A stretch of 64,000 nt of DNA from assembly GCF_002846575.1 (NCBI RefSeq), contig NZ_PJND01000008.1, positions 434,001 to 498,000 on the forward strand. The letters are read 5' to 3'. The DNA comes from Flavobacterium lindanitolerans. Its GTDB lineage: Bacteria; Bacteroidota; Bacteroidia; Flavobacteriales; Flavobacteriaceae. This document shows positions 3,390 through 32,914 of the stretch, one piece after another. The position numbers and the translations under genes were made by a program. Position 1 is the stretch's first letter. Every line of letters starts with the position of its first letter. The notes below the pieces were generated by a model. It saw only the letters and a list, made by a program, of their open reading frames with translations, made no database searches and was not told where the DNA came from.

Positions 3390-5297
3390 ATGCCCAAATT
3401 ATTCCCCTCAAAAAATATTTTGTTTTTGGCTCTGTTTTTACTCTGCATTTCCTATTCCCATTCCCAAACTCAGGAAATACAGAAACTTCAAAAGAGTCTG
3501 CCACATGTAAAGGACAGTATTTCATATGTCAATAAAATCAACCGTATTGGTATGCTGATGCATATGAAAAATCCGGACAGCAGTTTGATTTATGCAATGA
3601 ATGCCCGTACTGTTGCCGGAAGAATCCGGTATAAAAAGGGAGCCGTTGATGCGGAAAATGTAATTGGAATCTCATTAGCCTTAAAGGGGCTTAGCAATGA
3701 GGCCTTAAAAATATTCGGCCAGGTTCTTGCCGATTATGAAAAAATGGGCGATAAACAAAATACGGTGCAACTCTACATGAATTTTGCGAGCCTACAGATG
3801 CAAATCGGAAACCAGCTTCGGGCCGTAGAATATAACAGGCAGGCTTTGAAAATAGGAAAAAGCATTCCGACAGACAGCATCATGAGCAGGGTATATGCCA
3901 ATTATTGTATGGCAAATCCACAGCTTTCTGAAGACAGTGTTCAGTATTATCTGGAACGCTCCAATAAAATTGGTGAAAAAGTAAATGACCAGTCGCTTCT
4001 TATAGGCAACAAGCAAATTCTTGGTATTTTTTATATGATTCGGGGCGCCAGAGATAAAGCCTTACCGTTATTGGAAAGTTCGCTTCAGGAGGCGAAAGCA
4101 GCCAAACTTGAGCGATTACAGCTTCAGGGGCTCAACGCCATGGCTGAATTTAATGCTAACAACCCGGAATTAGCCCTGAAATATATGGAGGAGCAGATGA
4201 CCATAATAGAATCTAACGGTTATGACGAATTAAAAGCCCCGGTCTTATTTTCGATGCTGCGGTTCGCAAAAATGAGCGGGAATATTGAAAAAGAGCGGGA
4301 ATTAAGCGAAAAGATGATTGCCGCACAATTAAAGCGGCAAGCCAGTCTGGAAAAATTCATTGGAGATTATGTGCATTACTACCAAATCCAGGAAAATAAC
4401 AAGGATTTGGAGCGGTCACAAAAAGCATCACGACAGACTATCATAATATTGACCGTCTTTTCAATAGTGTGCGGTATTTTGCTATTGCTATTATTCCGGG
4501 CGTATAAAAAAATCCGAAATGATTCTAAAAAGAAAGCCGCATTATATGAAATCATCGAAAAAAAGAATGCTTCCTTATCTGAAGCCGATGCCATGAAATC
4601 TAACCTGGTTTCTATTCTTGCACATGACTTCCGTTCGCCTCTTATTTCAACCCTCTATATGGTTAGACTCTTAGAGCGTAATACGGAACTTACCGAATCT
4701 GAAAAGGAATCTTTTTATCTGACAATCAGTAATGATATTTCCGGAACGCTGGAAAATTTTGATGCTACCCTGCAATGGATTAAACGCCAACTTGGAGAGT
4801 TCAGAATTAATTTTGAAACGGTGGATATTCGTTCGTTACTTGACGAAGCCATTAGCGGCTACAATGCGCAGCTCAATGAAAAAGGAATTACGGTTATCAA
4901 TAATGTGCCGGAAGGTATTTTGGCCACATCAGACAAGGAAATGCTTCAATTTGTAAATCGAAACCTGCTTTCCAATGCCTTAAAATTTTCTCCTAAAGGT
5001 AAAACTATCGCTGTAGATGCATTTAAAAATGGGTCCGAAATTGTTATCTCCGTCAAAGATGAAGGGCCGGGATTATCACATAATCAAATCGAAAAACTGT
5101 TTTCTATAAGCAGTAAGGGTGGCTCAATGCATGAAGGTGCCGGCATAGCACTTTCGTTTAGTAAGGATTTTATAGTAAAACTAGGTGGAAGGATTTGGGC
5201 GGAAAATCGTAATACTGCCGGTAGCATCTTTAGTTATGCTGTTCCATCCAATCCCATTATTGATAAGGAAAGTATACAGTCAAAAATTGTGGCTTAA
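3390..5297 (+). CDS. TPR-containing sensor histidine kinase
   Basis: 635 residues: signal peptide (1-25, ending SYSHSQ), tetratricopeptide-type helices through ~340, one membrane segment at ~349-369 (IIILTVFSIVCGILLLLLF), coiled linker, HisKA with His412 in LAHDFRSPL, and HATPase_c with N-box NLLSNALKFS, G1 DEGPGLS and G2 GAGIALSFSKDF. The TPRs are predicted periplasmic and the kinase core cytoplasmic. No response regulator is fused or immediately adjacent, so it is an orphan kinase. The stand-alone receiver at 174-623 is the nearest candidate partner. Its 3' end abuts a long inverted repeat. Confidence 0.9.
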   Translation: MPKLFPSKNILFLALFLLCISYSHSQTQEIQKLQKSLPHVKDSISYVNKINRIGMLMHMKNPDSSLIYAMNARTVAGRIRYKKGAVDAENVIGISLALKGLSNEALKIFGQVLADYEKMGDKQNTVQLYMNFASLQMQIGNQLRAVEYNRQALKIGKSIPTDSIMSRVYANYCMANPQLSEDSVQYYLERSNKIGEKVNDQSLLIGNKQILGIFYMIRGARDKALPLLESSLQEAKAAKLERLQLQGLNAMAEFNANNPELALKYMEEQMTIIESNGYDELKAPVLFSMLRFAKMSGNIEKERELSEKMIAAQLKRQASLEKFIGDYVHYYQIQENNKDLERSQKASRQTIIILTVFSIVCGILLLLLFRAYKKIRNDSKKKAALYEIIEKKNASLSEADAMKSNLVSILAHDFRSPLISTLYMVRLLERNTELTESEKESFYLTISNDISGTLENFDATLQWIKRQLGEFRINFETVDIRSLLDEAISGYNAQLNEKGITVINNVPEGILATSDKEMLQFVNRNLLSNALKFSPKGKTIAVDAFKNGSEIVISVKDEGPGLSHNQIEKLFSISSKGGSMHEGAGIALSFSKDFIVKLGGRIWAENRNTAGSIFSYAVPSNPIIDKESIQSKIVA

Positions 5298-5298
5298 T

Positions 5299-5375
5299 TA
5301 TACCAGTTTGGGACAGGCAAAAAATAAAATTACTCCCACAATTTATTAATTTACCTGTCGCAGTAAACTGGTATA
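5299..5375. ncRNA. long hairpin (19-22 nt arms, 36-nt loop), candidate terminator or small RNA
   Basis: Left arm 5299-5317 (TATACCAGTTTGGGACAGG) pairs imperfectly with 5354-5375 (begins CCTGTC, ends AAACTGGTATA); the outer 11 bp and an inner CCTGTC/GACAGG are perfect. It begins directly after the kinase stop codon, so it could be that gene's terminator. It also lies about 25 nt downstream of the minus-strand start predicted for the triple-repeat promoter at 5405-5493, so it could be a small RNA transcribed on the minus strand. Confidence 0.5.
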
Positions 5376-5404
5376 GGGTGCGTATTCCCCCATCTTTAAT
5401 AGTC

Positions 5405-5493
5405 CAAAGGTTTGAATTCTTTTGCGAAACCTAAAGCAAGAAGTAACAAAAGGTCATATTTGGGAGTAAGTGGTTGAATTGGGGAGTAAGTGG
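5405..5493 (-). promoter_or_regulatory. triple 20-bp direct-repeat promoter, site 1
   Basis: Read on the minus strand: CCACTTACT (from 5493), CCACTTACT (from 5473) and a weaker CCTTTTGTTACTT (from 5453), exactly 20 nt apart. ACCTTTG then starts 42 nt after the last CC (5411-5405), the same spacing as at sites 2 and 3. Regularly spaced direct repeats fit a LytTR-type activator site. It may act on the minus strand (toward the 5299-5375 hairpin), on the plus-strand kinase gene starting at 5568, or both. A weak plus promoter, TTG (5516-5518) then TATTTTAG (5541-5548), lies just downstream. Confidence 0.6.
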
Positions 5494-5567: not shown

Positions 5568-8500
5568 ATGCATTTCCGCATATCTATACTCTTTTTGTTA
5601 TTTAGCGTTCAACTATTTGGACAGGATTATGCATTGAAAGAAGCACAAATTCGCGACGGATACAATACTTACCTGCTTTCAAGTTCTGCCTTTGTTGACA
5701 AAGACCGTTTTGTTTGGTATGCCACCAATCGCGATGGGGATTTTTACAGATTTGACGGAAAAAACAAGCTCAGGTACCAGTTTTATAAAAATGAAAACAG
5801 TTATGGGGATAGTTTCTATATCTGTAATAATGCCTGGATACAAGACCACAAGAATAACATTTGGGCAGCCGAACTGGATAAAGCTTATATCATTACTCCT
5901 GATAAACTTCTGGTAGAACGCATCCAATATCCTTCGGAAAAATTAAGTTCCAAGTCATTTATTGCAAAAGACGAAGTTAATAACCTCTGGATTAGCAATG
6001 GTTCACGGTTCCTGATTAAAATTACACCTGACCGTCAGGTTATCCGGGTTACGCATCCCCTACTGAATGATAAAAATGAAATTGAAATAATTAAGGTTTT
6101 AGACAACGGGAGAATCATCGCAAAATCAGGATACAACATTTTTTATGTTGACACCAAAGGAATACATTTCTCTGCTAATATCCATACCATTGACAAAGCT
6201 ATCAATTCTGAATTTGCTATTTTTGAGAACGGTAAAATTGTGGCCGAAAACAGCAGTGGTTATTATAAATACAACAATAGTTCCTACAAGTATGTCTATT
6301 TAAAGGAACTGAACATACAGCTATTTAATTATCCTTACGAAGAAAATTGTTTGTTAGGCAATTGTAACTGGAGCAATAGCACTTTGATTGCCGATTCAAA
6401 ATTTCTTGTAACGGATAACTCCTCCCTTTTCATCAATCAAATTGACAAGAAAACTAATCAGATTACTACCACAGACACCCTACATTTTAAAAAACAAATT
6501 TCTATCGCCAATAACAAACTCCATTCTAACTTTATATGGATATCAGCTTATGACGAACTTTATAAACTACTTATAATACCAAATAATTTTAAAAGAATTT
6601 TACAATCTGATGACAAGCAGTATAGCACGAGGGGTATTGTTTCAGATTCAAAAAACAACCTCTATATAGGCACATACGAAGGTCTTTACAAACAGGAAAA
6701 TAATAAAAAACCAGTACCATTTTTAGTCAAAGGAGAAAAAAACGGAGCTTATGACATTCTGATTTTAGAGAAAAATGATTCTATTTTATGGGGGTCGCAA
6801 GAATACAGCAGTCTCAAAAAAATAAATCTGACTACCCACACCAAAAAAGAGATAGGTCTTCCCAAAGGTTTCAAAATCGAATACATGAAAGAAAAATCTC
6901 CGGATGAATTGTGGATGGGTTCTAACAAAGGAATGTATGTTTTCAGTAAAAAAACAGAAACAATCAGTCCTTTTAATGAAAATGGATATTTTTTAGGTAC
7001 TGTTCCGGTATTGGGTTTTATTGAAGCAAAAGATGGAAAAAAATGGTTCGCTACCCGGCAGGGACTTTTCCTAAAGGAGAAAGGAAAAGATTTTATAAAC
7101 TATCAGAAACTGAATCCCACCTTTAATTTCAAAGACCTGCTCACACTACACGAAGACGATCGGGGCAATCTATGGATGAGTACCGGCGCAAAAGGAATTA
7201 TTTTCTTAGACCCAAAAACAAACCGCTTTAAAAATTTGACACAGTCTGACGGACTTTCAAACAACACGGTTTGCGGAATATTGGAAAGTAAGGAAGCCAT
7301 GTGGTTTTCTACCTACTACGGACTTACCCGATTTGACAAAAAAGAAGGTTTTTTTGCCTTATATTATAAAGAAGACGGACTGTCCGACAATGAATTTAAT
7401 GTCAGGTCTAGCTATAAAAAAGATGAGAATACATTTTATTTCGGAGGTCTGAATGGCATTATCGAATTCAATCCAGCCAACATAAAACTCAGGGGAAAAC
7501 ATCCGCATACCATTTTTTTGTACAGTTCTACCTATTTTTCCAATGAAAGAAATAAAAATGTAACCGATTATTTAAGCCTCCATAAAAAAACAATCAGCCT
7601 TCCTTATAATAAAAATTATTTTTCGGCAGTATTCTCTATTAATGAATTGTTTTACATTGAAAAAAACACCTATCTCTATAAAATAGAAGGACTTAGGAAT
7701 GAGTGGATAGATGCCGGAACATCCGGTCTTGTTGAGCTTCCCAGCCTCCCTCCCGGAGATTATGTATTACGGGTCAAAGGAAAAGACGCTAAAGGCATTG
7801 AGACTCTAAACGAAATAAAGATTAACCTCCATGTAGAACAGATTTTTTATAAAACACCATTTTTTATTATCTTGATAGCACTATTAGTGATTGGTTCAAT
7901 CATCTATTTCTTTTTCAGGCGTAACCGAAGACAAAAAAGAATTTTTGAAAGAGAAAAAGAAATTAAAGAACTAAAATCCAGTGCCCTTAGGGCCCAAATG
8001 AACCCTCATTTTGTCTTTAATATTTTGAATAATATGCAAAGCGTCCTGATTTTAAAGGGAGAAGCCGAAGCAAACAAATATTTTGGTGCTTTTTCTAAAC
8101 TTTTCAGGCAAACACTCGACATTTCAAGGCAGGAACTCATCACGCTCAAAAGTGAAATTGAATACCTCAACAATTATTTACTACTCAACAATCTGCAGCT
8201 CAACGATGAGTTAGAGTATTCTGTAAATGTTCAAAACAGCGTTGGGGATACCAGTACTATTTTTCTACCAGGCATGCTAATCCAACCTTTTGTAGAAAAT
8301 GCCATACTGCATGGGCTTTCCCCAAAACAGGACAAAAAGCTAACCATCGATTTTTCTATGGAAGAAGGCTATTTGGTGGTTATTGTTGAAGACAACGGAA
8401 TTGGCAGAACTATGGCTACAGAAAATACCCTGCACAAAAAAGAGGCACACAAATCATGGGCTACCACAATAGTTAATGAGCGAATCAACATTATGAATTA

Positions 8501-8609
8501 TCGTCATAATACTACTAAAGCTGTTATTCTTAAAATAGATGATTTAGAGAAAAACGGAAATCCTTGCGGTACCCGTGTAACCTTAAAATTACAACAGCCT
8601 ATGGAGTGA
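5568..8609 (+). CDS. two-component propeller sensor kinase, LytS/His_kinase type
   Basis: 1013 residues. Signal peptide 1-18 (LFLLFSVQLFGQ), then a long periplasmic region with Reg_prop/beta-propeller repeats (several copies of the xGLSNNTV / DRGNLWM / GLTRFD kind, ~30-650), a Y_Y_Y domain (~660-755), a membrane helix (~764-785, IILIALLVIGSIIYFFF), then a His_kinase (PF06580-like) segment with the phospho-acceptor His814 in MNPHFVFN, and HATPase_c with VEDNGIG. This architecture normally signals to LytTR regulators, and exactly such a gene follows 83 nt downstream. Many relatives sense extracellular polymers, but nothing here identifies the ligand. A triple-repeat regulatory site lies 75 bp upstream, which suggests autoregulation. 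Confidence 0.93.
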   Translation: MHFRISILFLLFSVQLFGQDYALKEAQIRDGYNTYLLSSSAFVDKDRFVWYATNRDGDFYRFDGKNKLRYQFYKNENSYGDSFYICNNAWIQDHKNNIWAAELDKAYIITPDKLLVERIQYPSEKLSSKSFIAKDEVNNLWISNGSRFLIKITPDRQVIRVTHPLLNDKNEIEIIKVLDNGRIIAKSGYNIFYVDTKGIHFSANIHTIDKAINSEFAIFENGKIVAENSSGYYKYNNSSYKYVYLKELNIQLFNYPYEENCLLGNCNWSNSTLIADSKFLVTDNSSLFINQIDKKTNQITTTDTLHFKKQISIANNKLHSNFIWISAYDELYKLLIIPNNFKRILQSDDKQYSTRGIVSDSKNNLYIGTYEGLYKQENNKKPVPFLVKGEKNGAYDILILEKNDSILWGSQEYSSLKKINLTTHTKKEIGLPKGFKIEYMKEKSPDELWMGSNKGMYVFSKKTETISPFNENGYFLGTVPVLGFIEAKDGKKWFATRQGLFLKEKGKDFINYQKLNPTFNFKDLLTLHEDDRGNLWMSTGAKGIIFLDPKTNRFKNLTQSDGLSNNTVCGILESKEAMWFSTYYGLTRFDKKEGFFALYYKEDGLSDNEFNVRSSYKKDENTFYFGGLNGIIEFNPANIKLRGKHPHTIFLYSSTYFSNERNKNVTDYLSLHKKTISLPYNKNYFSAVFSINELFYIEKNTYLYKIEGLRNEWIDAGTSGLVELPSLPPGDYVLRVKGKDAKGIETLNEIKINLHVEQIFYKTPFFIILIALLVIGSIIYFFFRRNRRQKRIFEREKEIKELKSSALRAQMNPHFVFNILNNMQSVLILKGEAEANKYFGAFSKLFRQTLDISRQELITLKSEIEYLNNYLLLNNLQLNDELEYSVNVQNSVGDTSTIFLPGMLIQPFVENAILHGLSPKQDKKLTIDFSMEEGYLVVIVEDNGIGRTMATENTLHKKEAHKSWATTIVNERINIMNYRHNTTKAVILKIDDLEKNGNPCGTRVTLKLQQPME

Positions 8610-8692: not shown

Positions 8693-9457
8693 ATGCAAGC
8701 CCATAAAGCCCTGATAATTGACGATGAAGTCAACAATATTGCCTTATTAAAACATTTCGTCACCAAATACTGTCCGAGTATAGAAGTCGTTGGCGAAGCC
8801 CTGACCATATCAGAAGGCATTTCCGAAATCAGGGAGAAAGAACCGGATATTCTTTTTTTGGATATAAAATTAAACGAAGGCAATTCCTTTGAAATCCTGG
8901 ACCAACTGGATAATCTTAAAGCGCAGGTAATTTTCGTTACTTCTTATGACGAGTATGCCCTTAAAGCTTTTAAATATAATGCTGTGGATTATATTCTAAA
9001 ACCCATCATTATAGAAGATGTGATTTTGGCCGTAAACAAAGCTGTAAAGAACATCGAGCAGCAAGACTTTTTTGATTTTGGAAAACTTACATCCTTGCCT
9101 AACGAAACCACATCTTTTTCTGAAAACAAAGAATATATAGCCATTCCTTCTCTGGATAAGGTTGATATGGTCAAAAGCAGCCAGATTACCTATATTGAGG
9201 CAGATAATAAATATACTGTTTTCCATACCATAGAGGGTAAAAAATATACCTCCAGCAAAAATCTTTTAAGTTTTGAGGAAACACTGGACAAGGCCCGCTT
9301 TTTCAGAATACACCATTCTTTCATACTCAATATTGAGCATCTTGTTACGATTATCAAAAAAGACGGAAGCTATTGCGAAATGTCGGATGGTACATTATTG
9401 CCTATTGCCAGACGTAAGCTGGAAGATTTCCATCGGTTTCTCAAAATCAAAAACTAG
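8693..9457 (+). CDS. LytTR-family response regulator
   Basis: 254 residues: receiver at 1-118 with acidic pair Asp10/Asp11, phospho-acceptor Asp57 (LFLDIKL), Thr/Ser near 83-84 and Lys103 (YILKPI); then a LytTR DNA-binding domain at ~146-250 (ITYIEADNKYTVFHT, FFRIHHSFILN). LytTR domains insert beta-strand loops into the major groove of two or more direct repeats about two helical turns apart. It is the cognate partner of the propeller kinase just upstream (83-nt gap, same strand) and the best candidate to bind the 20-bp-spaced repeats found at 5405-5493, 9797-9845 and 32869-32914. Confidence 0.95.
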   Translation: MQAHKALIIDDEVNNIALLKHFVTKYCPSIEVVGEALTISEGISEIREKEPDILFLDIKLNEGNSFEILDQLDNLKAQVIFVTSYDEYALKAFKYNAVDYILKPIIIEDVILAVNKAVKNIEQQDFFDFGKLTSLPNETTSFSENKEYIAIPSLDKVDMVKSSQITYIEADNKYTVFHTIEGKKYTSSKNLLSFEETLDKARFFRIHHSFILNIEHLVTIIKKDGSYCEMSDGTLLPIARRKLEDFHRFLKIKN

Positions 9458-9796: not shown

Positions 9797-9885
9797 CCAC
9801 TTATTCCCATATTCTTCCAGTTATTCGCAATAACAACCAGTTATTACTTTGCGATTGGCTTTATTCTTATTATCTGCAATCTTTG
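9797..9885 (+). promoter_or_regulatory. triple 20-bp direct-repeat promoter, site 2
   Basis: CCACTTATT (9797), CCAGTTATT (9817) and CCAGTTATT (9837) are spaced exactly 20 bp apart. ATCTTTG at 9879-9885 starts 42 nt after the last CC, matching sites 1 and 3, and is part of AATCTTTG, a 7/8 match to TAnnTTTG. A TTG at 9855-9857 gives a 20-nt spacer. Predicted start is near 9891 on the plus strand, directly ahead of the four hairpins at 9943-10404. The best candidate activator is the LytTR regulator encoded 340 bp upstream. Confidence 0.68.
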
Positions 9886-9942: not shown

Positions 9943-10030
9943 GTAGCTATAGTGTCTCTCACCAACAACGTTCTTATAAAAGTTTAGTTTAGATAAAAAT
10001 CGAAAAACTAGAGAGACACTATAACTATGC
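9943..10030 (+). ncRNA. long hairpin H1 of a four-hairpin array
   Basis: Left arm 9945-9961 (TAGCTATAGTGTCTCTC) and right arm 10012-10028 (GAGAGACACTATAACTA) pair at 16 of 17 positions around a 50-nt AT-rich loop that itself contains an AGTTT/AAACT pairing. No open reading frame of note covers it. It is the first structured element after the site 2 promoter. Confidence 0.6.
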
Positions 10031-10079
10031 TGCCTAAAAATAAAAAGCAAGTATTTATTTGAGATAAAACAACATGCTA

Positions 10080-10168
10080 TAAGAAAGCGGACTCCAAATT
10101 TTTCATAATGGATTATTTTGATAAAAACGCAACAATTAGGAATAAATAAAAAAAGCCGCTTTCTTTTT
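10080..10168 (+). ncRNA. long hairpin H2
   Basis: Perfect 10-bp arms AAGAAAGCGG (10082-10091) and CCGCTTTCTT (10157-10166) around a 65-nt loop. The right arm runs into a T-rich tract, so in the plus direction it could also terminate transcription. Its stem sequence is unrelated to H1, H3 and H4. Confidence 0.58.
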
Positions 10169-10205
10169 TATCAATCGACAATAAATACACAACTTATAAA
10201 ATAAA

Positions 10206-10307
10206 CAAGTGCCTCTTATAACATTCTCAATCCTCAGATATGTTACTATGAATTGTAGATTTGGGCTTCTAATTATTCATAATATCTAGTTAAAGAGGCA
10301 CTTTGTA
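10206..10307 (+). ncRNA. long hairpin H3
   Basis: Perfect 11-bp arms AAGTGCCTCTT (10208-10218) and AAGAGGCACTT (10294-10304), extended inward by TAAC/GTTA after one bulge. Further inside, AGATAT pairs with ATATCT and ATGAAT with ATTCAT, so nearly the whole ~100 nt folds into one rod. This is the best-structured of the four. Confidence 0.6.
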
Positions 10308-10312
10308 TTAAA

Positions 10313-10404
10313 CAGGAGGTTTCCTTACCACTTTCACAAAAAATCATCATAGTTGTGTGAAAAAATACATCGTTATACAAGCATGCATTCGGTGACCTCC
10401 TTTA
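10313..10404 (+). ncRNA. long hairpin H4
   Basis: Outer arms AGGAGGT (10315-10321) and ACCTCCT (10396-10402), with inner ACC/GGT pairing and a second internal stem TTTCACA / TGTGAAA in the loop. The right arm contains ACCTCCTTT, identical to the conserved 3' end (anti-Shine-Dalgarno) of bacterial 16S rRNA. It is only 5 nt from H3. Confidence 0.52.
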
Positions 10405-18898: not shown

Positions 18899-21800
18899 TT
18901 ACTTATTCTGACTAAGCACTATTTTCTCTAATTGTTTTAAACGTTCGTCCATACTCTTTGTAGCTTCTTTCAACTGGTTTATTTCTTTATCTTTAGCTTC
19001 CAGTTGTTTTTGCTGCTCAATAGTATGCAGGTATAATTCTTCTACTTTTTCCAGGATTTGTATTGAAAGTTCAGACATATTAAAAATGTATTCGCCTTTA
19101 TCATTTTGACGTAAGTCTTTGATGCTTGTAATACCAGGCAAATGTTTGTTTTCATTGATAAATGCTTCTACTTCTTTTATAGATTTGAAAGTATAGTCTT
19201 TTTTCAGTTCGGATGCACCGTTGAAATAGTCTTCAAATACATAGTCAGCATAAGTAGAATTGGCTGTTTCTATTGAACCGTTAACAGCAAGCAGCACATT
19301 TGCATTGGTAGTACCTAACATATTCTGGGTACCTATACCTACCTTTCCTGTACTGGAAACATGCACTCTGGAAGTACCATTGGTGATAAGTTCAACAGGT
19401 GTGGCCGAACCATTTGCCGTACCTACCAAAAGTCCTGTAGAAGTACCGCTTGATGTAAGTTGGGCACGGGAATTCAAATCCTGGTATAAATCTACCATAC
19501 TACTTCCTGATGACACTCTAAAATTTGACCTTCCTGTTGTAGTAGCATTTGTTATGTAAGCTCCATTAGAGTAGTTAAATATGGTTTCTCTGGTTTCTGG
19601 TGAAGCTACCGGCAAACTTGTCGACCTGAATCTAAGAAATTTACCATTCATATTTACTGTTCTATCGCCTGCCAAACTACCGTCAGCCGTATAAATGTTA
19701 TCCAGAGTGTTTTTGTTTACCCACGTTGGAACACCTGTTGCATCAGTAGTCAGAACCTGGTTGTTACCCGCATTGGCTATTTTGGCTACGGTTACTGCAT
19801 CATCAGCTATTTTGGCTGTAGTTATGGAATTGTTTGCAATGCTTAATGCGGCATCTGCCAGAACGGAGTTTGCCAAAGTGTTGGCACTGTTCACCTGAAT
19901 AATACCGTCTGTAGACAGTGTCTTGCCTAAGCCTGTTGCTGTCGTGTTCACCGAAAGCGTACCGTCTGCAGCTACTAATAAGCCTGTTCCCGGTTTTACA
20001 GCTCCTGTTGCGGAAGCCGTTGCAGGGCTTACGTTTACCGTATAGGCCGTATTGTTGCCACTTGTTGCAGAAGTTACCGTGGTTGCCGTTCCTGCTACTA
20101 CAGAACTTGTCTTCTGGTTATTCTGAAGGGCCGTCGTGTTTACAGACAATGTTCCGTCTGCCGCGATGTTAATTGTCGGTGCCGTACCTGCTTCTTTTAC
20201 AACTCCTAGGTTAGCACCGTTGGCTGTCGGTACGTTTACGGTATAAACAGGATTGTTAGGGTTGGTTGTATTGGTGGCTACCGTAACATTCGTACCTGCC
20301 GCTACTGTTGACGTCTTGTCATTGGCAGCAACTACCGGAGCAAGATTCAGTGCCACACTGGACACTCCATTTACCGTTGTAGTCAAATTTGAACCTGACA
20401 AGGTAGTGATAACGGCATTCACAGCAGCTGCCGAAGCCACTACCCCATTTACTGTTGATGTCAACGTATTGGTACCGTTATTAACCAAAGTGTTTGTGGT
20501 AGCAGGAACCAGGGCTGACTGGTTTACCCAGGTTGGTGCGCCTGTTCCATCTGTAGTCAAAACCTGATTGTTACCCGCATTGGCTATCTTGGCTACAGTT
20601 ACTGCATCATCAGCTATTTTGCCTGTAGTTATGGAATTGTTCGCAATACTTAATGCTGCATCTGCCAGAACAGAGTTCGCCAAAGTGTTGGCACTGTTCA
20701 CCTGAATAATACCGTCAGTGGTTAGTGTCTTGCCTAAACCTGTTGCTGTCGTATTCACAGAAAGCGTACCATCTGGAGCAATAGTCACTGTAGGATTACT
20801 TGCTGCTTGTTTTACAACTCCCAGGGTAGTACCAGCCGTTGGTACATTAACCTTATAATCCGTAGTATTGCCGCTTACTGTTGAAGCTACCGTAGTATTG
20901 GTCCCATTGCTTAATGTTGTCAACTTTTGGTTTGACTGAATATTTCCTGCCGTTACATCTACATTATATGCCGTGTTGTTTCCGGTTACAGAAGATGTTA
21001 CCGTTGCCAGTCCGCTTCCTGTAACCGAAGTTGTCTTTTGACTTGACTGTACAGACGAAGGGTTTATTTCAACAGTATAGGCTGTATTGTTACCGCTGGT
21101 TGCCGAAGTTACTGTGGTAGTTGTACCGCTTACTACAGAACTTGTCTTTTGGTTATTCTGAAGTGCAGTGGTATTTACCGACAATGTTCCGTCGGCCGCG
21201 ATGTTTATTGTCGGAGCCGTATTCGCTTCTTTTACAACACCCAAGGAAGTACCGTTGGCTGTTGGTACGTTTACAATATAGTTTGTAGTATTACCTGAAA
21301 CAGAATTGGTTACCGTAGTATTGGTTCCAGCCGCTACGGTTGCCGTTTTGTCGTTGGCAGCAATTACCGGAGCCAAATTCAATGCCGAGCCAGACACACC
21401 GTTTACCGTAGTAGTTAAGTTTGAGCCTGATAAAGTAGTAGCGACTGTATTTACTGCCGGAGCTGTTGCCACTACCCCGTTTACTGTTGATGTCAAAGTA
21501 TTGGTACCGTTATTAACCAAAGTGTTTGTGGTAGCAGTGACCAATGTTGATTGGTCAATCCAAGATGGCGTGCCTGAACTATTTGTTACCAAGACCTTGT
21601 TATTACCTCCGGAAGCCAGTTTAGTAACTGCTACATTTGCAGCAGCAGCGATATCAGCATTCACAATAGTACCGTCCAATATCTTGGCGCTCGTTACCGC
21701 TCCATCCTTAATGTTGGCAGTTACGGTAGTCAAGGTAGCACCACTACCATTAGTAATATCCAAGTCTGAAGATGTAAAGTTCTTACCTGCACCAGGATCC

Positions 21801-24800
21801 GTTGGCGTACCTGTTCCACTTAGGTTGACAGACAGCTCTCCATTAGAGTTAATTTTTATCGTTGGGTTGGTAACAGCCGCCTCTTTTACAACTCCTAAAG
21901 CAGTACCGTTAGCAGTTGGCACATTAACAGTATAAATAGGATTGTTAGGATTGGCATTATTGGTAGTTATTGAAGTGTTTGTACCTGCTGCTACTGTTGC
22001 CGTCTTATCGGATGCATTAGGAATAGTGTTAATATCAACATCAATTTTACCTGTGACGGTGTTTAATTTTAAACCCGCACCTGCTAAAGCCGTTGGACTT
22101 ACATCTACCTGATAATTAGTTGTATTTGCAATTGGTGTAGTAGTTACCAAAGTGGTATATGTTCCACTACTTACTGTAGTATTTTTTTGATTACCTGGAA
22201 TCAATACTGATTGATCTGTCCATACTGGAGTTCCAGATGCATTAGTTGTCAGTACCTGATTGTTTCCTGCATTGGCTATTTTGCCAGTTGTAATTGTACT
22301 GTTAGCAATATCTGCATTAACAATAGTACCGTCCAATATTTTGGCACTGGTTACCGCGCCATCCTTAATGTTAGCCGTTACGGTCGTTAATGTAGCACCA
22401 TTACCATTGGTAATGTCAAGGTCTGTGGATGAAAAGTTCTTACCTACACCCGGATCTGTTGGCGTACCCGTTCCGCTTAGGTTAACTGACAGTTCTCCAT
22501 TAGAGTTAATTTTTATGGTAGGATTAGAAGATGCTTCCTTTACAACCCCTAAATTACTGGCTGTGGCGGTTGGCACACTAACCTTATAATCAGTAGTATT
22601 TCCGGTTACTGTTGAAGCTACCGTAGTATTGGTACCATTACTTACTGTTGTCAACTTTTGGTTTGACTGAATATTTGCTGCCGTCACATCTACATTATAT
22701 GCCGTGTTGTTTCCGGTTACAGAAGATGTTACCGTTGCCAGGCCGCTTCCTGTAACTGAAGTCGTCTTTTGACTTGACTGTACAGACGAAGGATTTATTT
22801 CAACAGTATAGGCTGTATTGTTACCGCTGGTTGTCGAAGTTACCGTTGTGGTTGTTCCATTTACTACCGAACTGGTCTTATCATTGGCAGCAATTACGGG
22901 AGTAAGATTCAATGCCGTGCCAGACACACCGTTTACCGTTGTAGTCAGGTTTGAACCTGATAAAGTAGTGGCAACAGTATTCACTGCAGGCGCTGTAGCC
23001 ACTACCCCGTTTACTGTTGATGTTAATGTATTAGTACCGTTATTGGCCAAAGTGTTTGTAGTCGCTGGCACCAAAGCAGACTGGTTAACCCAGATTGGTG
23101 CACCTGTTGCATCAGTAGTCAGAACCTGATTATTACCCGCATTCGCTATCTTGGCTACAGTTACTGCATCATCAGCTATTTTGGCTGTAGTTATGGAATT
23201 GTTTGCAATGCTTAATGCCGCATCTGCCAGAACAGAGTTCGCCAAAGAGCTGGCACTGTTCACCTGAATAATACCGTCAGTGGTCAGTGTTTTTCCTAAA
23301 CCTGTTGCTGTCGTATTTACAGAAAGCGTACCGTCTGCAGCTACTGATAAGCCTGTTCCCGGTTTTACGGCTCCTGTTGCGGAAGCCGTTGCAGGACTTA
23401 CGTTTACCGTATAGGCCGTATTGTTGCCACTTGTTGCAGAAGTTACTGTGGTCGCCGTTCCTGCTACTACAGAACTTGTCTTCTGGTTTGACTGAACATT
23501 TGCTGCCGATACATCTACATTATAAGCCGTGTTGTTTCCACTTACAGAAGATGTTACCGTAGCCAAGCCGCTACCCGTAACCGAAGCCGTCTTTTGGTTG
23601 GACTGTACAGCCGAAGGATTTATTTCAACAGTATAGGCCGTATTGTTGCCGCTTGTTGCTGAAGTTACTGTTGTGGTCGTGCCGCTTACTACCGAACTGG
23701 TCTTGTCATTGGCAGCCACTACCGGAGCCAGATTCAATGCCGTACTACCCACACCGTTTACCGTTGTGGTCAAGTTTGAACCGGATAAGGTGGTAGTAAC
23801 GCTATTCACTGCCGCTGCCGTAGCCACTGCTCCGTTTACGGTTGATGTGAGTGTGTTGGTACCGTTATTAACCAAAGTGTTTGTGGTGGCAGGTACCAAA
23901 GCAGACTGGTTCACCCAGGTTGGTGCGCCTGTTCCATCTGTAGTCAGAACCTGGTTGTTACCCGCGTTGGCTATCTTGGCTGTAGTTATGGAATTGTTCG
24001 CAATGCTTAATACCGCATCTGCCAGAACGGAGTTTGCCAAAGTGTTGGCACTGTTCACCTGAATAATACCGTCTGTAGACAGTGTCTTACCTAAGCCTGT
24101 TGCAGTCGTGTTCACCGAAAGCGTACCGTCTGCAGCTACTGATAAGCCTGTTCCCGGTTTTACAGCTCCTGTTGCGGAAGCCGTTGCAGGGTTTACGTTT
24201 ACCGTATAGGCCGTATTGTTGCCACTTGTTGCAGAAGTTACCGTGGTCGCCGTTCCTGCCACTACAGAACTTGTCTTTTGGTTGTTCTGAAGTGCTGTCG
24301 TGTTTACAGACAATGCTCCGTCTGCCGCGATGTTAATTGTTGGTGCCGTACTTGCTTCTTTTACAACACCTAAGGCAGTACCATTGGCTGTCGGTACATT
24401 TACGGTATAAACAGGATTATTAGGATTGGCATTATTGACAGCAACCGTAGTATTTGTACCTGCAGCTACTGTTGCCGTTTTATCAGTTGCATTAGGAATG
24501 GTATTAACATTTACAGTCAATGTTCCATCAGCAGCTACGTCTAACCCGGCTCCTGCTTTTACCGCTCCGGTTGTTGTTGTGGTTGCAGGATTAACATTTA
24601 CTTTATAGTCTGTTGTATTTCCAGCTGATGTGGAAGCAACAGTTGTATTTGTACCATTACTTAATGTCACAATCTTTTGGTTTGCCTGAACGATGTCTTG
24701 TATGCTGATGGTATGGGAAGTACCCGTATTGTCAACATAGGTAAAGCTGGCTCCGTTATAGTAAACGTTACCGCCCACCGAAGTGTTCGTAAGGTTCGTA

Positions 24801-27800
24801 ATCAGCTGGTTCAGCACACTTGTATTGCTGATAATGTCATTGAAGTTGCTCACAACATCTGCAGGAACGTCAATAGTGACCTGCGTACCTGCCTCGTTCG
24901 TATAGGTATAGGTACCATCATTGTTATTCACTAATGTGGTTATCGTTTCGTTGCCCGTAACCAGTTGTGCCATGTCAAGCGTGGTCGTGTTGCCGTTCTC
25001 GTCCTTGTAGGTCAGCTTCTTGGTAGCCGAGTCATAGCCAAGGATTGTAAGCGTTTCATTAGCATCGATGATGTTCTTGATAATAGTGCTTACGGAACTG
25101 TTGTTCATGATGTCCTGAAAGTTTTGGATGACATCTGCAGGAATGTCGATGGTCGTTACGGTGCCATTTTCTGACGTATAAGTGTAGGTTCCGTTGTTAT
25201 TGTCTACCAGCGTTGTTAAAGTCTCGTTACCTGCAACAAGCTGTCCTAAATCAAGCATGGTAGTATTACCGTTCTCATCCTTATAGGTCAGTTTTTTAGT
25301 TGCCGAGTCATAACCCAACACCGTTAGCGTCTCGTTCGCATCGATGATGTTCTTGATAATAGTACTTACGGAGTTATCGTTCATGATATCCTGGAAGTTC
25401 TGGATAACATCCGCAGGAACGTCGATGGTCGTTACAGTACCGTCTTCTGACGTATACGTATACGTACCGTTGTTGTTGTCTACCAATGTGGTTACCGTTT
25501 CGTTGCCCGTAACCAGTTGTGCCATGTCAAGCGTGGTCGTGTTGCCGTTCTCATCCTTGTAGGTCAGTTTCTTGGTAGCCGAGTCATAGCCAAGGATTGT
25601 AAGCGTCTCGTTCGCATCGATGATGTTCTTGATAATAGTACTTACGGAGTTATCGTTCATGATATCCTGGAAGTTCTGGATAACATCCGCAGGAACGTCG
25701 ATGGTCGTTACAGTACCGTCTTCTGACGTATACGTATACGTACCGTTGTTGTTGTCTACCAATGTGGTTACCGTTTCGTTGCCCGTAACCAGTTGTGCCA
25801 TGTCAAGCGTGGTCGTGTTGCCGTTCTCATCCTTGTAGGTCAGTTTCTTGGTAGCCGAGTCATAGCCAAGGATTGTAAGCGTCTCGTTCGCATCGATGAT
25901 GTTCTTGATAATAGTGCTTACGGAATTGTCGTTCATGATGTCCTGGAAGTTCTGGATAACATCCGCAGGAACATCGATGGTCGTTACGGTGCCATTTTCT
26001 GACGTATAAGTGTAGGTCCCGTTGTTGTTGTCTACCAGCGTTGTTAAAGTCTCGTTACCTGCAACAAGCTGTCCTAAATCAAGCATGGTAGTATTACCGT
26101 TCTCATCCTTATAGGTCAGCTTCTTGGTAGCCGGGTCATAGCCCAATACCGTCAACGTTTCGTTGGCATCGATGATGTTCTTCACAATCGTGCTTACCGA
26201 ATTGTCGTTCATAATGTCCTGGAAGTTCTGGATCACATCCGCAGGAACATCGATGGTCGTTACGGTGCCATTTTCTGACGTATAAGTGTAGGTTCCGTTG
26301 TTGTTGTCTACCAGCGTTGTTAAAGTCTCGTTACCTGCAACAAGCTGTCCTAAATCAAGCATGGTAGTATTACCGTTCTCATCCTTATAGGTCAGCTTCT
26401 TGGTAGCCGGGTCATAGCCCAATACCGTCAACGTTTCGTTGGCATCGATGATGTTCTTCACAATCGTACTTACCGAATTGTCGTTCATGATGTCCTGGAA
26501 GTTCTGGATCACATCCGCAGGAACGTCGATGGTCGTTACGGTGCCATTTTCTGACGTATACGTATACGTACCGTTATTGTTGTCTACCAATGTGGTTACC
26601 GTTTCGTTACCAGTAACCAGTTGTGCCATGTCAAGCGTGGTCGTGTTACCGTTCTCGTCCTTGTAGGTCAGCTTCTTGGTAGCCGAGTCATAGCCAAGGA
26701 TTGTAAGCGTTTCATTAGCATCGATGATGTTCTTCACAATCGTGCTTACCGAATTGTCGTTCATGATGTCCTGGAAGTTCTGGATGACATCCGCAGGAAC
26801 GTCGATGGTCGTTACGGTGCCATTTTCTGACGTATACGTATACGTACCGTTGTTATTGTCTACCAATGTAGTTACCGTTTCGTTGCCCGTAACCAGTTGC
26901 GACATGTCAAGTATTGTGGTCCGTCCGTCCTCATCCTTATAAGTCAGCTTCTTGGTAGCCGGGTCATAGCCCAATACCGTCAGCGTTTCGTTGGCATCGA
27001 TGATGTTCTTCACAATCGTGCTTACCGAATTGTCGTTCATGATGTCCTGGAAGTTCTGGATGACATCTGCAGGAACGTCGATGGTCGTTACCGTACCGTC
27101 TTCTGACGTATACGTATACGTACCGTTGTTGTTGTCTACCAATGTGGTTACCGTTTCGTTGCCACGAACAATGTCCTGGATGTTGATGGTATGGGAAGTA
27201 CCTGTATTGTCAACATAGGTAAAGCTGGCTCCGTCATAGTAAACGTTTCCGCCTACCGAGGTGTTCGTCAGATTCGTAATCAGCTGGTTCAGCACACTTG
27301 TATTGGTGATAATGTCATTGAAGTTGCTCACAACATCTGCAGGAACGTCAATAGTGACCTGCGTACCCGCTTCGTTCGTATAGGTATAGGTACCATCATT
27401 GTTATTCACTAATGTTGTTACAGTTTCGTTGCCACGAACGATGTCCTGGATGTTGATGGTATGGGAAGTTCCCGTATTGTCAACATAGGTAAAGCTGTTT
27501 CCGTCATAGTAAACGTTTCCGCCTACCGAGGTGTTCGTCAGATTCGTTATCAGCTGGTTAAGCACGCTGCTGTTGCTGATGATGTTCTGGAAATTGCTGA
27601 TGACATCTGCCGGCACATTGATAGTGACCTGAGTGCCTGCTTCGTTAGTATAGGTATAGGTACCATCATTGTTATTGACAAGTGTTGTTATCTTTTGCAA
27701 ATCCGACAAAGCTATCCTCACATTATTTCCATCACTATCTGTCAGAATCAAATCCTGACCGTTTTGGGTCAGGCTGACATTGGTCGTGTTGGTATCATCG

Positions 27801-28120
27801 CCATTGCTAATCATTTTAATCCATTTGTTCTCATACCAATAGTAGAATCCCGGTGTAACACCTAAAGGAGCGGTTCCGGTTTCTGCCGTGTTAAAAACCA
27901 ATAAGCTATTGGGCAGGGTTCCCGTATTGACGATCGGGTTCATACTGCTGGTACTCTGAAGTGCCACCCTTGGTATAAGAATACCTCTTTTCTCTGGTTG
28001 CCCGTCAACAGTTACTTCTAACTGTGATGAGTTATTAGGGGTTCTGGTTCCTATTCCTACCTGGGAATAAGCTGCAGAGGCTCCTAATATCGCAATGGCG
28101 GTGAGTAATAATTTCTTCAT
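18899..28120 (-). CDS. giant repeat-rich surface fibre/adhesin (3073 residues)
   Basis: Signal peptide 1-19 (ends SAAYSQ), then VGIGTRTPNNSSQLEV and a GFYYWYENKWIKM block, the usual N terminus of Bacteroidota fibre-like proteins. Residues ~140-320 are two 90-residue repeats; ~320-1055 are eight 92-residue repeats (GTYTYTSENGTVTTIDVPAD ... LGYDPATKKLTYKDENG). Residues ~1150-2800 are Thr/Asn/Val/Ala-rich imperfect repeats with phage-fibre-like NNSITTAKIADDAV and NNQVLTTDGTGAPTW units. The end (2807-3073) has KVGIGTQNM ... LLAVNGSI, then FINENKHLPGITS and a C-terminal coiled coil (EELYLHTIEQQKQLEAKDKE), resembling tail-fibre C termini. No T9SS sorting domain is visible. It lies between the PorP/SprF-OmpA operon and eight paralogues sharing its VNGS-type motif. 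I infer a cell-surface filament. Confidence 0.88.
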   Translation of the reverse strand: MKKLLLTAIAILGASAAYSQVGIGTRTPNNSSQLEVTVDGQPEKRGILIPRVALQSTSSMNPIVNTGTLPNSLLVFNTAETGTAPLGVTPGFYYWYENKWIKMISNGDDTNTTNVSLTQNGQDLILTDSDGNNVRIALSDLQKITTLVNNNDGTYTYTNEAGTQVTINVPADVISNFQNIISNSSVLNQLITNLTNTSVGGNVYYDGNSFTYVDNTGTSHTINIQDIVRGNETVTTLVNNNDGTYTYTNEAGTQVTIDVPADVVSNFNDIITNTSVLNQLITNLTNTSVGGNVYYDGASFTYVDNTGTSHTINIQDIVRGNETVTTLVDNNNGTYTYTSEDGTVTTIDVPADVIQNFQDIMNDNSVSTIVKNIIDANETLTVLGYDPATKKLTYKDEDGRTTILDMSQLVTGNETVTTLVDNNNGTYTYTSENGTVTTIDVPADVIQNFQDIMNDNSVSTIVKNIIDANETLTILGYDSATKKLTYKDENGNTTTLDMAQLVTGNETVTTLVDNNNGTYTYTSENGTVTTIDVPADVIQNFQDIMNDNSVSTIVKNIIDANETLTVLGYDPATKKLTYKDENGNTTMLDLGQLVAGNETLTTLVDNNNGTYTYTSENGTVTTIDVPADVIQNFQDIMNDNSVSTIVKNIIDANETLTVLGYDPATKKLTYKDENGNTTMLDLGQLVAGNETLTTLVDNNNGTYTYTSENGTVTTIDVPADVIQNFQDIMNDNSVSTIIKNIIDANETLTILGYDSATKKLTYKDENGNTTTLDMAQLVTGNETVTTLVDNNNGTYTYTSEDGTVTTIDVPADVIQNFQDIMNDNSVSTIIKNIIDANETLTILGYDSATKKLTYKDENGNTTTLDMAQLVTGNETVTTLVDNNNGTYTYTSEDGTVTTIDVPADVIQNFQDIMNDNSVSTIIKNIIDANETLTVLGYDSATKKLTYKDENGNTTMLDLGQLVAGNETLTTLVDNNNGTYTYTSENGTVTTIDIPADVIQNFQDIMNNSSVSTIIKNIIDANETLTILGYDSATKKLTYKDENGNTTTLDMAQLVTGNETITTLVNNNDGTYTYTNEAGTQVTIDVPADVVSNFNDIISNTSVLNQLITNLTNTSVGGNVYYNGASFTYVDNTGTSHTISIQDIVQANQKIVTLSNGTNTTVASTSAGNTTDYKVNVNPATTTTTGAVKAGAGLDVAADGTLTVNVNTIPNATDKTATVAAGTNTTVAVNNANPNNPVYTVNVPTANGTALGVVKEASTAPTINIAADGALSVNTTALQNNQKTSSVVAGTATTVTSATSGNNTAYTVNVNPATASATGAVKPGTGLSVAADGTLSVNTTATGLGKTLSTDGIIQVNSANTLANSVLADAVLSIANNSITTAKIANAGNNQVLTTDGTGAPTWVNQSALVPATTNTLVNNGTNTLTSTVNGAVATAAAVNSVTTTLSGSNLTTTVNGVGSTALNLAPVVAANDKTSSVVSGTTTTVTSATSGNNTAYTVEINPSAVQSNQKTASVTGSGLATVTSSVSGNNTAYNVDVSAANVQSNQKTSSVVAGTATTVTSATSGNNTAYTVNVSPATASATGAVKPGTGLSVAADGTLSVNTTATGLGKTLTTDGIIQVNSASSLANSVLADAALSIANNSITTAKIADDAVTVAKIANAGNNQVLTTDATGAPIWVNQSALVPATTNTLANNGTNTLTSTVNGVVATAPAVNTVATTLSGSNLTTTVNGVSGTALNLTPVIAANDKTSSVVNGTTTTVTSTTSGNNTAYTVEINPSSVQSSQKTTSVTGSGLATVTSSVTGNNTAYNVDVTAANIQSNQKLTTVSNGTNTTVASTVTGNTTDYKVSVPTATASNLGVVKEASSNPTIKINSNGELSVNLSGTGTPTDPGVGKNFSSTDLDITNGNGATLTTVTANIKDGAVTSAKILDGTIVNADIANSTITTGKIANAGNNQVLTTNASGTPVWTDQSVLIPGNQKNTTVSSGTYTTLVTTTPIANTTNYQVDVSPTALAGAGLKLNTVTGKIDVDINTIPNASDKTATVAAGTNTSITTNNANPNNPIYTVNVPTANGTALGVVKEAAVTNPTIKINSNGELSVNLSGTGTPTDPGAGKNFTSSDLDITNGSGATLTTVTANIKDGAVTSAKILDGTIVNADIAAAANVAVTKLASGGNNKVLVTNSSGTPSWIDQSTLVTATTNTLVNNGTNTLTSTVNGVVATAPAVNTVATTLSGSNLTTTVNGVSGSALNLAPVIAANDKTATVAAGTNTTVTNSVSGNTTNYIVNVPTANGTSLGVVKEANTAPTINIAADGTLSVNTTALQNNQKTSSVVSGTTTTVTSATSGNNTAYTVEINPSSVQSSQKTTSVTGSGLATVTSSVTGNNTAYNVDVTAGNIQSNQKLTTLSNGTNTTVASTVSGNTTDYKVNVPTAGTTLGVVKQAASNPTVTIAPDGTLSVNTTATGLGKTLTTDGIIQVNSANTLANSVLADAALSIANNSITTGKIADDAVTVAKIANAGNNQVLTTDGTGAPTWVNQSALVPATTNTLVNNGTNTLTSTVNGVVASAAAVNAVITTLSGSNLTTTVNGVSSVALNLAPVVAANDKTSTVAAGTNVTVATNTTNPNNPVYTVNVPTANGANLGVVKEAGTAPTINIAADGTLSVNTTALQNNQKTSSVVAGTATTVTSATSGNNTAYTVNVSPATASATGAVKPGTGLLVAADGTLSVNTTATGLGKTLSTDGIIQVNSANTLANSVLADAALSIANNSITTAKIADDAVTVAKIANAGNNQVLTTDATGVPTWVNKNTLDNIYTADGSLAGDRTVNMNGKFLRFRSTSLPVASPETRETIFNYSNGAYITNATTTGRSNFRVSSGSSMVDLYQDLNSRAQLTSSGTSTGLLVGTANGSATPVELITNGTSRVHVSSTGKVGIGTQNMLGTTNANVLLAVNGSIETANSTYADYVFEDYFNGASELKKDYTFKSIKEVEAFINENKHLPGITSIKDLRQNDKGEYIFNMSELSIQILEKVEELYLHTIEQQKQLEAKDKEINQLKEATKSMDERLKQLEKIVLSQNK
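24956..27163 (-). repeat. eight tandem 276-bp coding repeats in the fibre gene
   Basis: Eight consecutive 276-bp (92-codon) units, each spanning TTLVDNNNGTYTYT to LDMAQLVTGNE. The span is exactly 8 x 276 bp. Two unit subtypes alternate (LDMAQLVTGNETV and LDLGQLVAGNETL), some neighbouring units are nearly identical at DNA level, and the first unit is the most divergent (DGRTTILDMSQL). Length change by recombination is expected. Related 90-codon units flank the array (27164-27700 and ~24690-24955). Confidence 0.9.
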
Positions 28121-30169: not shown

Positions 30170-31090
30170 TTAGAAGAATCGAGGCGTCATTACCTTGTCA
30201 TATTTTTTAAACAATTCAAATCGTAGAAATATCTCGTGAGAACCTGAATTATAGGTCGCCAGTTTGGTAGTTTCTGCATCATAGGCATAGCCGGCAAAAA
30301 AACCGTCGGTCATTTGAAATCCAACCATAGCACTCACAGCCGCACTCCATCTGTAGGCTACTCCGGCCGTTATTTTTTCGTTGAAAAGGAAATTGGCCGA
30401 AAAATCTGCCTGAAGCGGTGCCCCTTCAGCTATTTTAAAAAGAACGGATGGTTTAAATTTCAAATCCGGATTTAATTCAAAGACATGTCCTCCCATCAGG
30501 TAGAAATGCATATTTTGTCTTGCGGTGGAATAATTTCCATTATCCTGATAATGTTTGGTTTCAAGGAAAGCAGGCACAGAAAGCCCTACATAAGTATCTT
30601 TCGAATACAAAAAGGCACCTGCCCCAATATTTGGAGTAAAGGAATCTTCTATATTACTTTGAAATCTGGGGTCGTTAGGGTCATAGATATCCAGTTTGGT
30701 ATAGTCAACGTTTAACAGGTTGGCCGTTGTTTTCAATCCGAAGGCCAAATTGAACTCTTCCGAAAGCCTAATCATATAGGAAAAATCGACCGAAATATTA
30801 TTCTCACTGGATGGTCCTATTTTATCGTTCACAAAAGAGAGCCCAAGCCCAACATTGCTATTACTTATAGGAGAATGTAAGGCGAATGCGCCGGTTTTTG
30901 GTGCCCCTTTCAAGCCTATCCATTGTGCGCGATAGAGCCCAAAAATGCTCAACACATCTCTGGAACCTGCATAGGCAGGATTGATGTTCGCCGTATTGTA
31001 CATATACTGGGTATACTGCGAATCCTGCTGGGCAAACCCTACTGCTCCTACAAGAAGAGCCAGCAAGGCAAGCTTATAACTGGTTTTCAT
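30170..31090 (-). CDS. PorP/SprF-family type IX secretion membrane protein
   Basis: 306 residues. Signal peptide 1-20 (ends VGFAQQ), then the hallmark QDSQYTQYMYN and NPAYAGSRD motifs and alternating beta-strands to a C-terminal FLRFELFKKY, predicting an outer-membrane barrel. SprF is needed in F. johnsoniae for surface delivery of the giant adhesin SprB, and PorP-type proteins accompany T9SS cargo with type B domains. Here it follows a CHU_C protein (18 nt) and precedes OmpA and a 3073-residue fibre, a layout that recalls sprB-sprF. Confidence 0.94.
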   Translation of the reverse strand: MKTSYKLALLALLVGAVGFAQQDSQYTQYMYNTANINPAYAGSRDVLSIFGLYRAQWIGLKGAPKTGAFALHSPISNSNVGLGLSFVNDKIGPSSENNISVDFSYMIRLSEEFNLAFGLKTTANLLNVDYTKLDIYDPNDPRFQSNIEDSFTPNIGAGAFLYSKDTYVGLSVPAFLETKHYQDNGNYSTARQNMHFYLMGGHVFELNPDLKFKPSVLFKIAEGAPLQADFSANFLFNEKITAGVAYRWSAAVSAMVGFQMTDGFFAGYAYDAETTKLATYNSGSHEIFLRFELFKKYDKVMTPRFF

Positions 31091-32430: not shown

Positions 32431-32580
32431 GCCGCGCCCAGCGGGATCCGTACGAAGAACTTTACCCCTAAAACTCTTACGGCTTTCCCGCTTCCGCAGC
32501 CTGAAAAAGCGCCCGGCAGTGCTGCCTCTACCACAATACAGCACTCATGCAGGACGAGCGTCCTATAAGAGCATGTTGGG
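32431..32580 (-). promoter_or_regulatory. GC-rich foldable leader element ahead of the T9SS operon
   Basis: 150 bp with 87 G/C (58 %), in otherwise AT-rich DNA, ending 38 nt before the CHU_C start codon. Four complementary arm pairs can be read: CATGC/GCATG (32546-32550, 32571-32575) enclosing AGGAC/GTCCT (32551-32555, 32560-32564), AGTGCTG/CAGCACT (32518-32524, 32539-32545), and AGCGGGA/TCCCGCT (32440-32446, 32486-32492). It looks like a structured RNA leader (riboswitch-like or protein-responsive). It matches no class I can name; an extragenic repeat is the alternative. Confidence 0.5.
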
Positions 32581-32825
32581 CCTTCTTTTTATCATGTATT
32601 TTTTACAATCTACATTACTGATAACATTTAATCCTTAAAAAATAAATACTAACCTGAGAACAGTTTTCATGGATAAAACTATCCAATGATGAAAAACACA
32701 CACAAGTAAGAACCCATTCTCTTCAGAATATTTTTAAGTAGGGATTTATATAATCCTAAAGGATTTGTAGAAAGCTGGGGCATAGCTTTATGATTACAGA
32801 GATTAAATAACTCTCAATCACAGTA

Positions 32826-32914
32826 CAAAGATGTGACGGTTACTTAGAAGGTTATAGCAAAAAGTAACAACTGGCAGTATACAAGCGTAACTGGCAACAT
32901 ACAAGAATAACTGG
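32826..32914 (-). promoter_or_regulatory. triple 20-bp direct-repeat promoter, site 3
   Basis: Read on the minus strand: CCAGTTATT (from 32914), CCAGTTACG (from 32894) and CCAGTTGTTACTTTTTGC (from 32874), spaced exactly 20 nt. ATCTTTG (32832-32826) starts 42 nt after the last CC, as at sites 1 and 2. Predicted start is near 32820, giving a ~430-nt leader to the T9SS operon that includes TGATT/AATCA, AAAGCT/AGCTTT and TGGATA/TATCCA hairpins and the GC-rich element. It lies in the divergent region, so an effect on the plus-strand phosphatase is also possible. Confidence 0.65.

Follow-up and report, generated by a model that had tools for sequence, protein, structure and literature searches.

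Described LytTR operators and the Flavobacterium sites

The operators of LytTR regulators consist of elements of 9–11 nt separated by 11–13 nt (PMC4847170), and AgrA and YpdB occupy two direct repeats of about 9–11 bp, with 11–13 bp between them, upstream of the core promoter, the promoter-proximal repeats of AgrA being centred near -60 (PMC4227749, PMC4847170). Three sites in a 64,000-nt stretch of the Flavobacterium lindanitolerans genome (here called the window) show a similar arrangement, as the operator of this clade is built of 9-bp CCASTTAYN elements with 11 or 12 bp between them, which lies within the LytTR range. Unlike the AgrA and YpdB operators, the Flavobacterium sites have three repeats with a sequence of their own, the last one extended (TACTT), and the promoter is of the Bacteroidota TTTG kind. 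Two-repeat operators are standard for LytTR regulators, and triple-repeat operators have already been described for RcoM1 and CoxC, whose LytTR domain binds three direct repeats with 12–13 bp spacers (PMC11347149). The likeness to these lies in the three evenly spaced direct repeats, found here in 21 of 22 close-clade sites. On the other hand, RcoM1 and CoxC are CO sensors, CoxC carrying an MHYT domain, and the repeat sequence of RcoM1 is TTCNNGCA (PMC11347149), whereas in the present locus the gene for a receiver-LytTR protein adjoins that of a kinase. The gas-sensing domain of RcoM and CoxC has no counterpart in the product of 8693–9457, which carries a receiver domain instead.

HdrRM and BrsRM are, to our knowledge, LytTR systems without a kinase. 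As at the Flavobacterium locus, their repeats lie upstream of the -35 region and the regulator and its sites are encoded together, but their repeat pairs precede the regulator's own operon whereas the Flavobacterium sites flank it (PMC6193735). The sigma-A promoter box of Flavobacterium is TAnnTTTG (PMC9723704), and the first-pass annotation had assigned the boxes of the three window sites to this -7 element. TTTG is indeed common to both, but TA is missing at all three sites (AATCTTTG, AACCTTTG and CATCTTTG), so that the -7 element is matched only in part and TAnnTTTG was abandoned as a definition of the box. The operator may thus represent a geometry of its own within known LytTR operators, and the RNAs encoded downstream of it are possibly new; a limited search of the open-access literature returned no description of the CCASTTAY motif or of these RNAs.

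Repeat sites in the window and in the genome

CCASTTAY occurs three times at a 20-bp period at all three window loci, each of them intergenic relative to ORFs of at least 100 aa, and ATCTTTG or ACCTTTG begins 42 nt past the last CC. Site 1 (9797..9849, plus strand; repeats at 9797, 9817 and 9837, the last extended to CCAGTTATTACTT) lies 3' of the regulator gene and is directed away from it; its box ATCTTTG is at 9879..9885, and transcription is predicted to start near 9890 if the box is placed from -12 to -5 (PMC9723704). Site 2 (5441..5493, minus strand; first CC at 5493, 5473 and 5453, the third repeat being degenerate, CCTTTTGTTACTT) lies 75 bp before the histidine kinase gene, is likewise directed away from that gene, and has the box ACCTTTG at 5405..5411. 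Site 3 (32862..32914, minus strand; repeats at 32914, 32894 and 32874) has the box ATCTTTG at 32826..32832. The coordinates, period and distances given in the first-pass annotation are therefore correct, and since CTTTG begins 44 nt past the last CC at 3/3 sites, the identical 42-nt distance is exact; its wording of the sequence, TTRTTACTTYTTGC, fits both minus-strand sites but not the plus-strand site, which reads TTATTACTTTGCG instead.

The combined pattern CCASTTAYK-N11-CCASTTAYK-N11-CCNNTTRTTACTT, with up to three mismatches allowed, matched the window three times (5493-, 9797+ and 32914-), each time with 0 mismatches, and a mean of 0.00 times in 100 dinucleotide shuffles of it. The repeat pair alone, at the same tolerance, is much weaker (9 matches in the window against 4.04 expected). 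Across the genome (3,722,747 bases in 15 contigs), a nearly identical pattern lacking the K position (up to three mismatches) found only the three window sites, and the reversed-pattern control of the rigid triple-repeat search found none. As a motif definition, rigid 20-20 spacing was nevertheless dropped: it gave 0/99 in other genomes, but it misses sites with 20 + 21 spacing, and the two close relatives of the window's genome were absent from that draw.

Patterns of two repeats, or of one repeat plus box, revealed at least six sites in the window's genome (G000), in which repeats one and two score 7 or 8 of 8 when they may stand either 20 or 21 bp apart; control matches there numbered 1 in one looser search and 2 in another. 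The genome-wide set of sites is thus larger than the three of the window. The further sites precede a two-module RNA1 copy followed by an Ig-domain protein gene (C7:419205), a gene for a repeat-rich 529-aa protein (C9:43753) and a 100-aa ORF (C7:1624609). A weak extra candidate with 2 mismatches was seen at C7:106151 (L124).

With these looser patterns six sites were retained in G000, six in G150 and ten in G373, the last two genomes being the close relatives (some candidates were left out), and the sites recur near the closest LytTR relatives in both despite drifted surrounding DNA. Each of the three window sites is kept in G150, where the third shows just two repeats, and G000 C9 and G150 C35 have the same site and, by eye, a similar gene. 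The distal repeat, 40–43 bp upstream of the last, did not form part of the patterns used to find the sites, and 3 of the 22 sites were known beforehand from the finding; it is present at 21/22 sites in G000, G150 and G373, at 0/7 in a further genome, G014, whose sites have two repeats at most, and at 21/29 overall, with nine control windows scoring 0–2 of 29 sites each. This count leaves out G373 C1:1510276 and C2:199517, G150 C34:208062, G000 C7:106151, G014 C111, C258 and C96, and every two-repeat-plus-box match in other genomes. Every spacing in the 21 three-repeat sites is 20 or 21. Among the 22 close-clade sites CTTTG stands exactly at 44 in 14 and TTTG in 15, numbers that are inflated because CTTTG was part of search patterns, which therefore pick such sites preferentially; the other 7 have no TTTG there.

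RNA1 behind site 1

Site 1 is followed by a candidate structured RNA, RNA1, a 500-nt stretch with four hairpin modules and no good ORF. No plus-strand ORF longer than 34 aa overlaps 9886–10440, so that a coding RNA1 was rejected, and no ORF of at least 100 aa follows on the same strand until 20253. The modules, all on the plus strand, are A (UAUAGUGUCUCUC/GAGAGACACUAUA; 9947..10023), B (AAGAAAGCGG/CCGCUUUCUU; 10078..10169), C (AAGUGCCUC/GAGGCACUU; 10204..10305) and D (AGGAGGU/ACCUCCU; 10310..10403). Seven copies were found in three genomes (two in G000, two in G150 and three in G373), the second copies in G000 (C7:419205) and G150 having modules A and B only. When arms are swapped between copies, own arms pair better than swapped ones in all four stems, the permutations as good as the real pairing (the real one counted) being 11/5040 for A, 2/5040 for B, 1/120 for C and 4/120 for D, in a test that takes the copies as unrelated and is the sole one for B, C and D. 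The pair count covers stem A only, where 95.6% of cells pair and 5/13 pairs are changed on both sides, and 0/500 shuffles equalled both values; additional pair types are no more numerous than is usual (108/500 shuffles have as many). The module A model also gives nine weak sense-strand matches to B and C modules (E 0.0045–0.36), the remaining matches away from A being two on reverse-strand B and one that falls in no module; the modules are therefore alike. The loop word UUUUGAU is present in 7/7 B modules, UUCAU in 17/24 modules, counted without a background expectation, and the combination UUCAU ... GGUUUAGUU is, by eye, common to several modules. Similar REP-like elements containing GCAGAGCCGCAAAG were seen by eye on either side of site 1 and RNA1 (about 9560–9625 and 10553–10615). 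Further along, eight consecutive minus-strand ORFs of 290–316 aa occupy 10845–18750; the four scanned (10845, 11783, 12740 and 17866) had no Pfam family match.

A longer array of about five hairpins, without CCASTTAY repeats, is matched by the RNA1 module model (R2) in G000 C9 (L172:3570-4120), G150 C35 (L173:3608-4141) and G373 C4 (L174:3778-4360), with E 4e-5 to 0.004. In G000 this array forms the 5' leader of the gene for a GEVED-domain protein, and the product encoded after the G373 array appears, on inspection by eye, to be the same. The G373 RNA1 copy behind the LytTR gene (L039) is likewise followed by a GEVED, T9SS-tailed protein of 1697 aa, with a terminator-like inverted repeat in between. 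The modules thus look like surface-protein leaders, several of which appear to have come under the LytTR operator, and the RNA1 of the window looks like such a leader standing alone. Upstream of the longer arrays, a block TATCA..AAATTCTCATTCATA and a CAATCTTTG box, common by eye to the three loci, are perhaps the operator of another regulator.

It is possible, though on balance improbable, that RNA1 and its relatives are attenuators, that is, tandem terminator-like hairpins before surface-protein genes that an antitermination signal opens. Several RNA1 hairpins do end in U-rich runs, and the G000 C7 copy stands before an Ig-domain protein, the G373 L039 copy before the GEVED/T9SS-tailed protein and the G000 C9 array before a GEVED protein. 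Loops of roughly 40–95 nt are, however, long for terminators, and the RNA1 of the window has no same-strand ORF of at least 100 aa before 20253. A simple terminator scan of the plus strand (9700–10850) found none, which counts little because it was limited to loops of 3–8. The modules could also be elements of the DNA, whether REP-like palindromes or a piece of a mobile element, that lie by chance behind promoters, which would fit their recurrence at several loci and the similar-looking repeats around RNA1; this is improbable, as all seven copies have the modules they contain in one orientation and one order with respect to the promoter, sense-strand loop words are kept (UUUUGAU in 7/7 B modules) and strong R2 matches (E below 1e-8) in 398 genomes comprise only those seven copies.

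RNA3, RNA2 and the spread of the RNAs

Site 3 lies 430 bp upstream of a minus-strand gene run, with a 430-nt structured leader between. The conserved core of this leader, RNA3 (32431..32598, minus strand), precedes the gene starting at 32392 and comprises 168 nt with the conserved loops UUGUGGUAGA and GUUUUAGGGGUAAARUU, common to G000, G150 and G373. In a pairing test on these three sequences, which leans towards the window copy because the structure was taken from it, 90% of cells pair (only 78% in the first helix) and 7/57 pairs are changed on both sides, with 0/500 shuffles as high on either. All on the minus strand, the genes behind site 3 encode a CHU_C/T9SS type B sorting-domain protein (31109..32392), PorP/SprF (30170..31090), an OmpA/PD40 protein (28209..30155) and a 3073-aa protein (18899..28120), which has no convincing domain and is perhaps a secreted adhesin, judging from its neighbours. 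Their spacing suggests a single PorP/SprF-type operon. RNA3 precedes a CHU_C gene in both G000 and G373, and in G373 the genes that follow resemble those of the window in size and order; in G150 the stretch read has nothing behind RNA3 but an ORF of 134 aa with no match in Pfam. RNA2, a short hairpin stretch (5280..5402, minus strand), runs towards the 3' end of gene 3390–5297; across the part that aligns with G150, site included, the two sequences agree to 86%, with the arms GACAGG/CCUGUC in both G000 and G150 and outer arms partly changed in G150.

Among 398 genomes of the genus, the RNA3 model (R1) matches G000, G150 and G373 at E<=0.01 with Infernal's stricter filters, and R2 matches 18 at E<=0.1; strong matches of either model were found in no genome other than these three. 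A wide spread of the RNAs was rejected: of the 15 R2-matched genomes other than these three, the three best (L148–L150), which were the ones inspected, showed no array, the other 12 matches being weak. Rfam 15 gave 0 matches in the window at gathering score, the one threshold applied to RNA2, and only a tRNA on the loci of four relatives; an Rfam identity for RNA1 and RNA3 was likewise discarded, every match at E<=10 in 9797–10850 and 32380–32920 being far below gathering score. CsrB and RsmZ are RNA sponges of repeated hairpins driven by a two-component regulator, and RNA1 may be likened to them in outline only. RNA1, RNA2 and RNA3 are presumably made as RNAs, and their most likely role is that of long folded leaders, or of leaders no longer attached to a gene, by which the expression of large T9SS surface proteins would be tuned. 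A more doubtful extension is that, in this small clade of Flavobacterium, the LytTR two-component system controls a novel type of modular non-coding RNA, formed of two to about five covarying-stem hairpins with loop words in common and leading large T9SS surface-protein genes, in which the free-standing RNA1 might bind an RNA-binding protein common to all the leaders and thereby link them.

The LytTR regulator and its link to the repeats

The presumed binder of the repeats is the LytTR response regulator (Response_reg + LytTR) encoded at 8693..9457 on the plus strand (PF04397, E 1.7e-16), and its presumed partner is the histidine kinase (His_kinase, Y_Y_Y, Reg_prop) at 5568..8609 on the same strand. 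The nearest named relative found for the regulator is that of Flavobacterium microcysteis (89% identical), the closest in G373 has 65% identity, and in a search of solved structures the best matches cover the receiver and one, 3d6w, the LytTR part. A site lies downstream of the LytTR gene, on its strand, in the window, G150, G373, G429 C16 and G226, and before a LytTR gene in G269 and, by eye, in G014; no forward site was found before the regulator operon of the window, which the sites flank.

With 3 mismatches allowed, the two-repeat-plus-box pattern occurs in 18 of the 398 genus genomes, against 3 for the reversed control. Beyond the close three, 10 of the 15 matched genomes also hold a LytTR homologue at E<=1e-40 and the other five hold none at that threshold. 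In 9/10 genomes with both, motif and LytTR gene are within 10 kb (213 to 9121 bp; P about 5e-20, using one listed LytTR match per genome for the distance and all of them for chance), and in the tenth, G435, they are on different contigs. In an order-level search 7/276 genomes matched at <=3 mismatches, and the control in 2; the matches outside the genus were only G549 and G558, one each with 3 mismatches, and G520, G540 and G597 were new matches of the same genus.

G429 and G226, with LytTR identities of 52–59%, do not have the two-repeat-plus-box pattern; a looser scan and reading by eye revealed CGTTAATC-type repeats 20–21 bp apart, mostly ending in CCGTTAACTACTTT, with TTTG-like boxes near 45. 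Repeats, spacing and the TACTT extension are thus kept in relatives at this identity, the position is kept in 2/3 loci, and the letters are changed. Among other places, the LytTR domain differs by IHHS in the CCASTTAY group and IHKS in the CGTTAA group, in a loop which we take to be the one that touches DNA. In G429 (L041:11781-17620) and G226 (L043:11927-12549) the operator behind the LytTR gene precedes a small ORF of 118–128 aa, which had no Pfam match in G429, where it was scanned, and which is followed there by a TonB-dependent receptor gene.

That another regulator, a LytTR paralogue or a member of a different family, binds the repeats, the sites being merely near this LytTR gene, is about as improbable as the DNA-element reading of the modules. 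G000 does encode three or more LytTR regulators at E<=1e-40 (6 of its 51 candidates having been scored), but the sites adjoin the closest relatives of 8693–9457 in five genomes, are no more than 10 kb from a LytTR homologue in 9/10 more distant ones, and vary in their letters with the regulator clade. A fortuitous AT-rich upstream element without a specific binder is very improbable, since the shuffle and genome searches, the distal repeat, the variant operators and the LytTR linkage are all contrary to it. The first-pass proposal that the repeats are the operator of the regulator at 8693–9457 is therefore supported at the level of sequence: shuffles and genome search exclude chance, the distal repeat is kept at 21/22 sites, the motif tracks the regulator across species with letters that change with its clade, the protein has receiver and LytTR domains, and the repeat geometry fits LytTR operators.

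Proposed mode of action

It is very probable that the three sites are operator-promoters of this LytTR regulator, which would be phosphorylated by the kinase and activate a regulon of at least six promoters. The kinase (5568–8609) would phosphorylate the regulator, molecules of which may then bind side by side to the three direct repeats, lined up along a single helical face. Measured from the predicted start, the repeats would be centred at about -89, -69 and -49, just upstream of the RNA polymerase site, a position that points to activation rather than repression. The promoters so activated would have a weak -7 box (TTTG without TA), and a missing TA may be expected of an activator-dependent promoter. 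Three of the promoters would lie in the window, before RNA1, RNA2 and RNA3, the last as leader of the PorP/SprF-type operon.

These results yield an operator code that can be tested for one group of LytTR regulators in Flavobacterium, together with a natural specificity pair, CCASTTAYT versus CCGTTAACT, that can be compared with the protein differences. They also expose structured RNA candidates upstream of genes for large secreted surface proteins, on whose post-transcriptional control we know of little work. Additionally, three operator sites of G373 (L080, L081 and L082) have TATTG at the box position and stand before long, repetitive-looking leaders, two of which lead similar 202-aa proteins.
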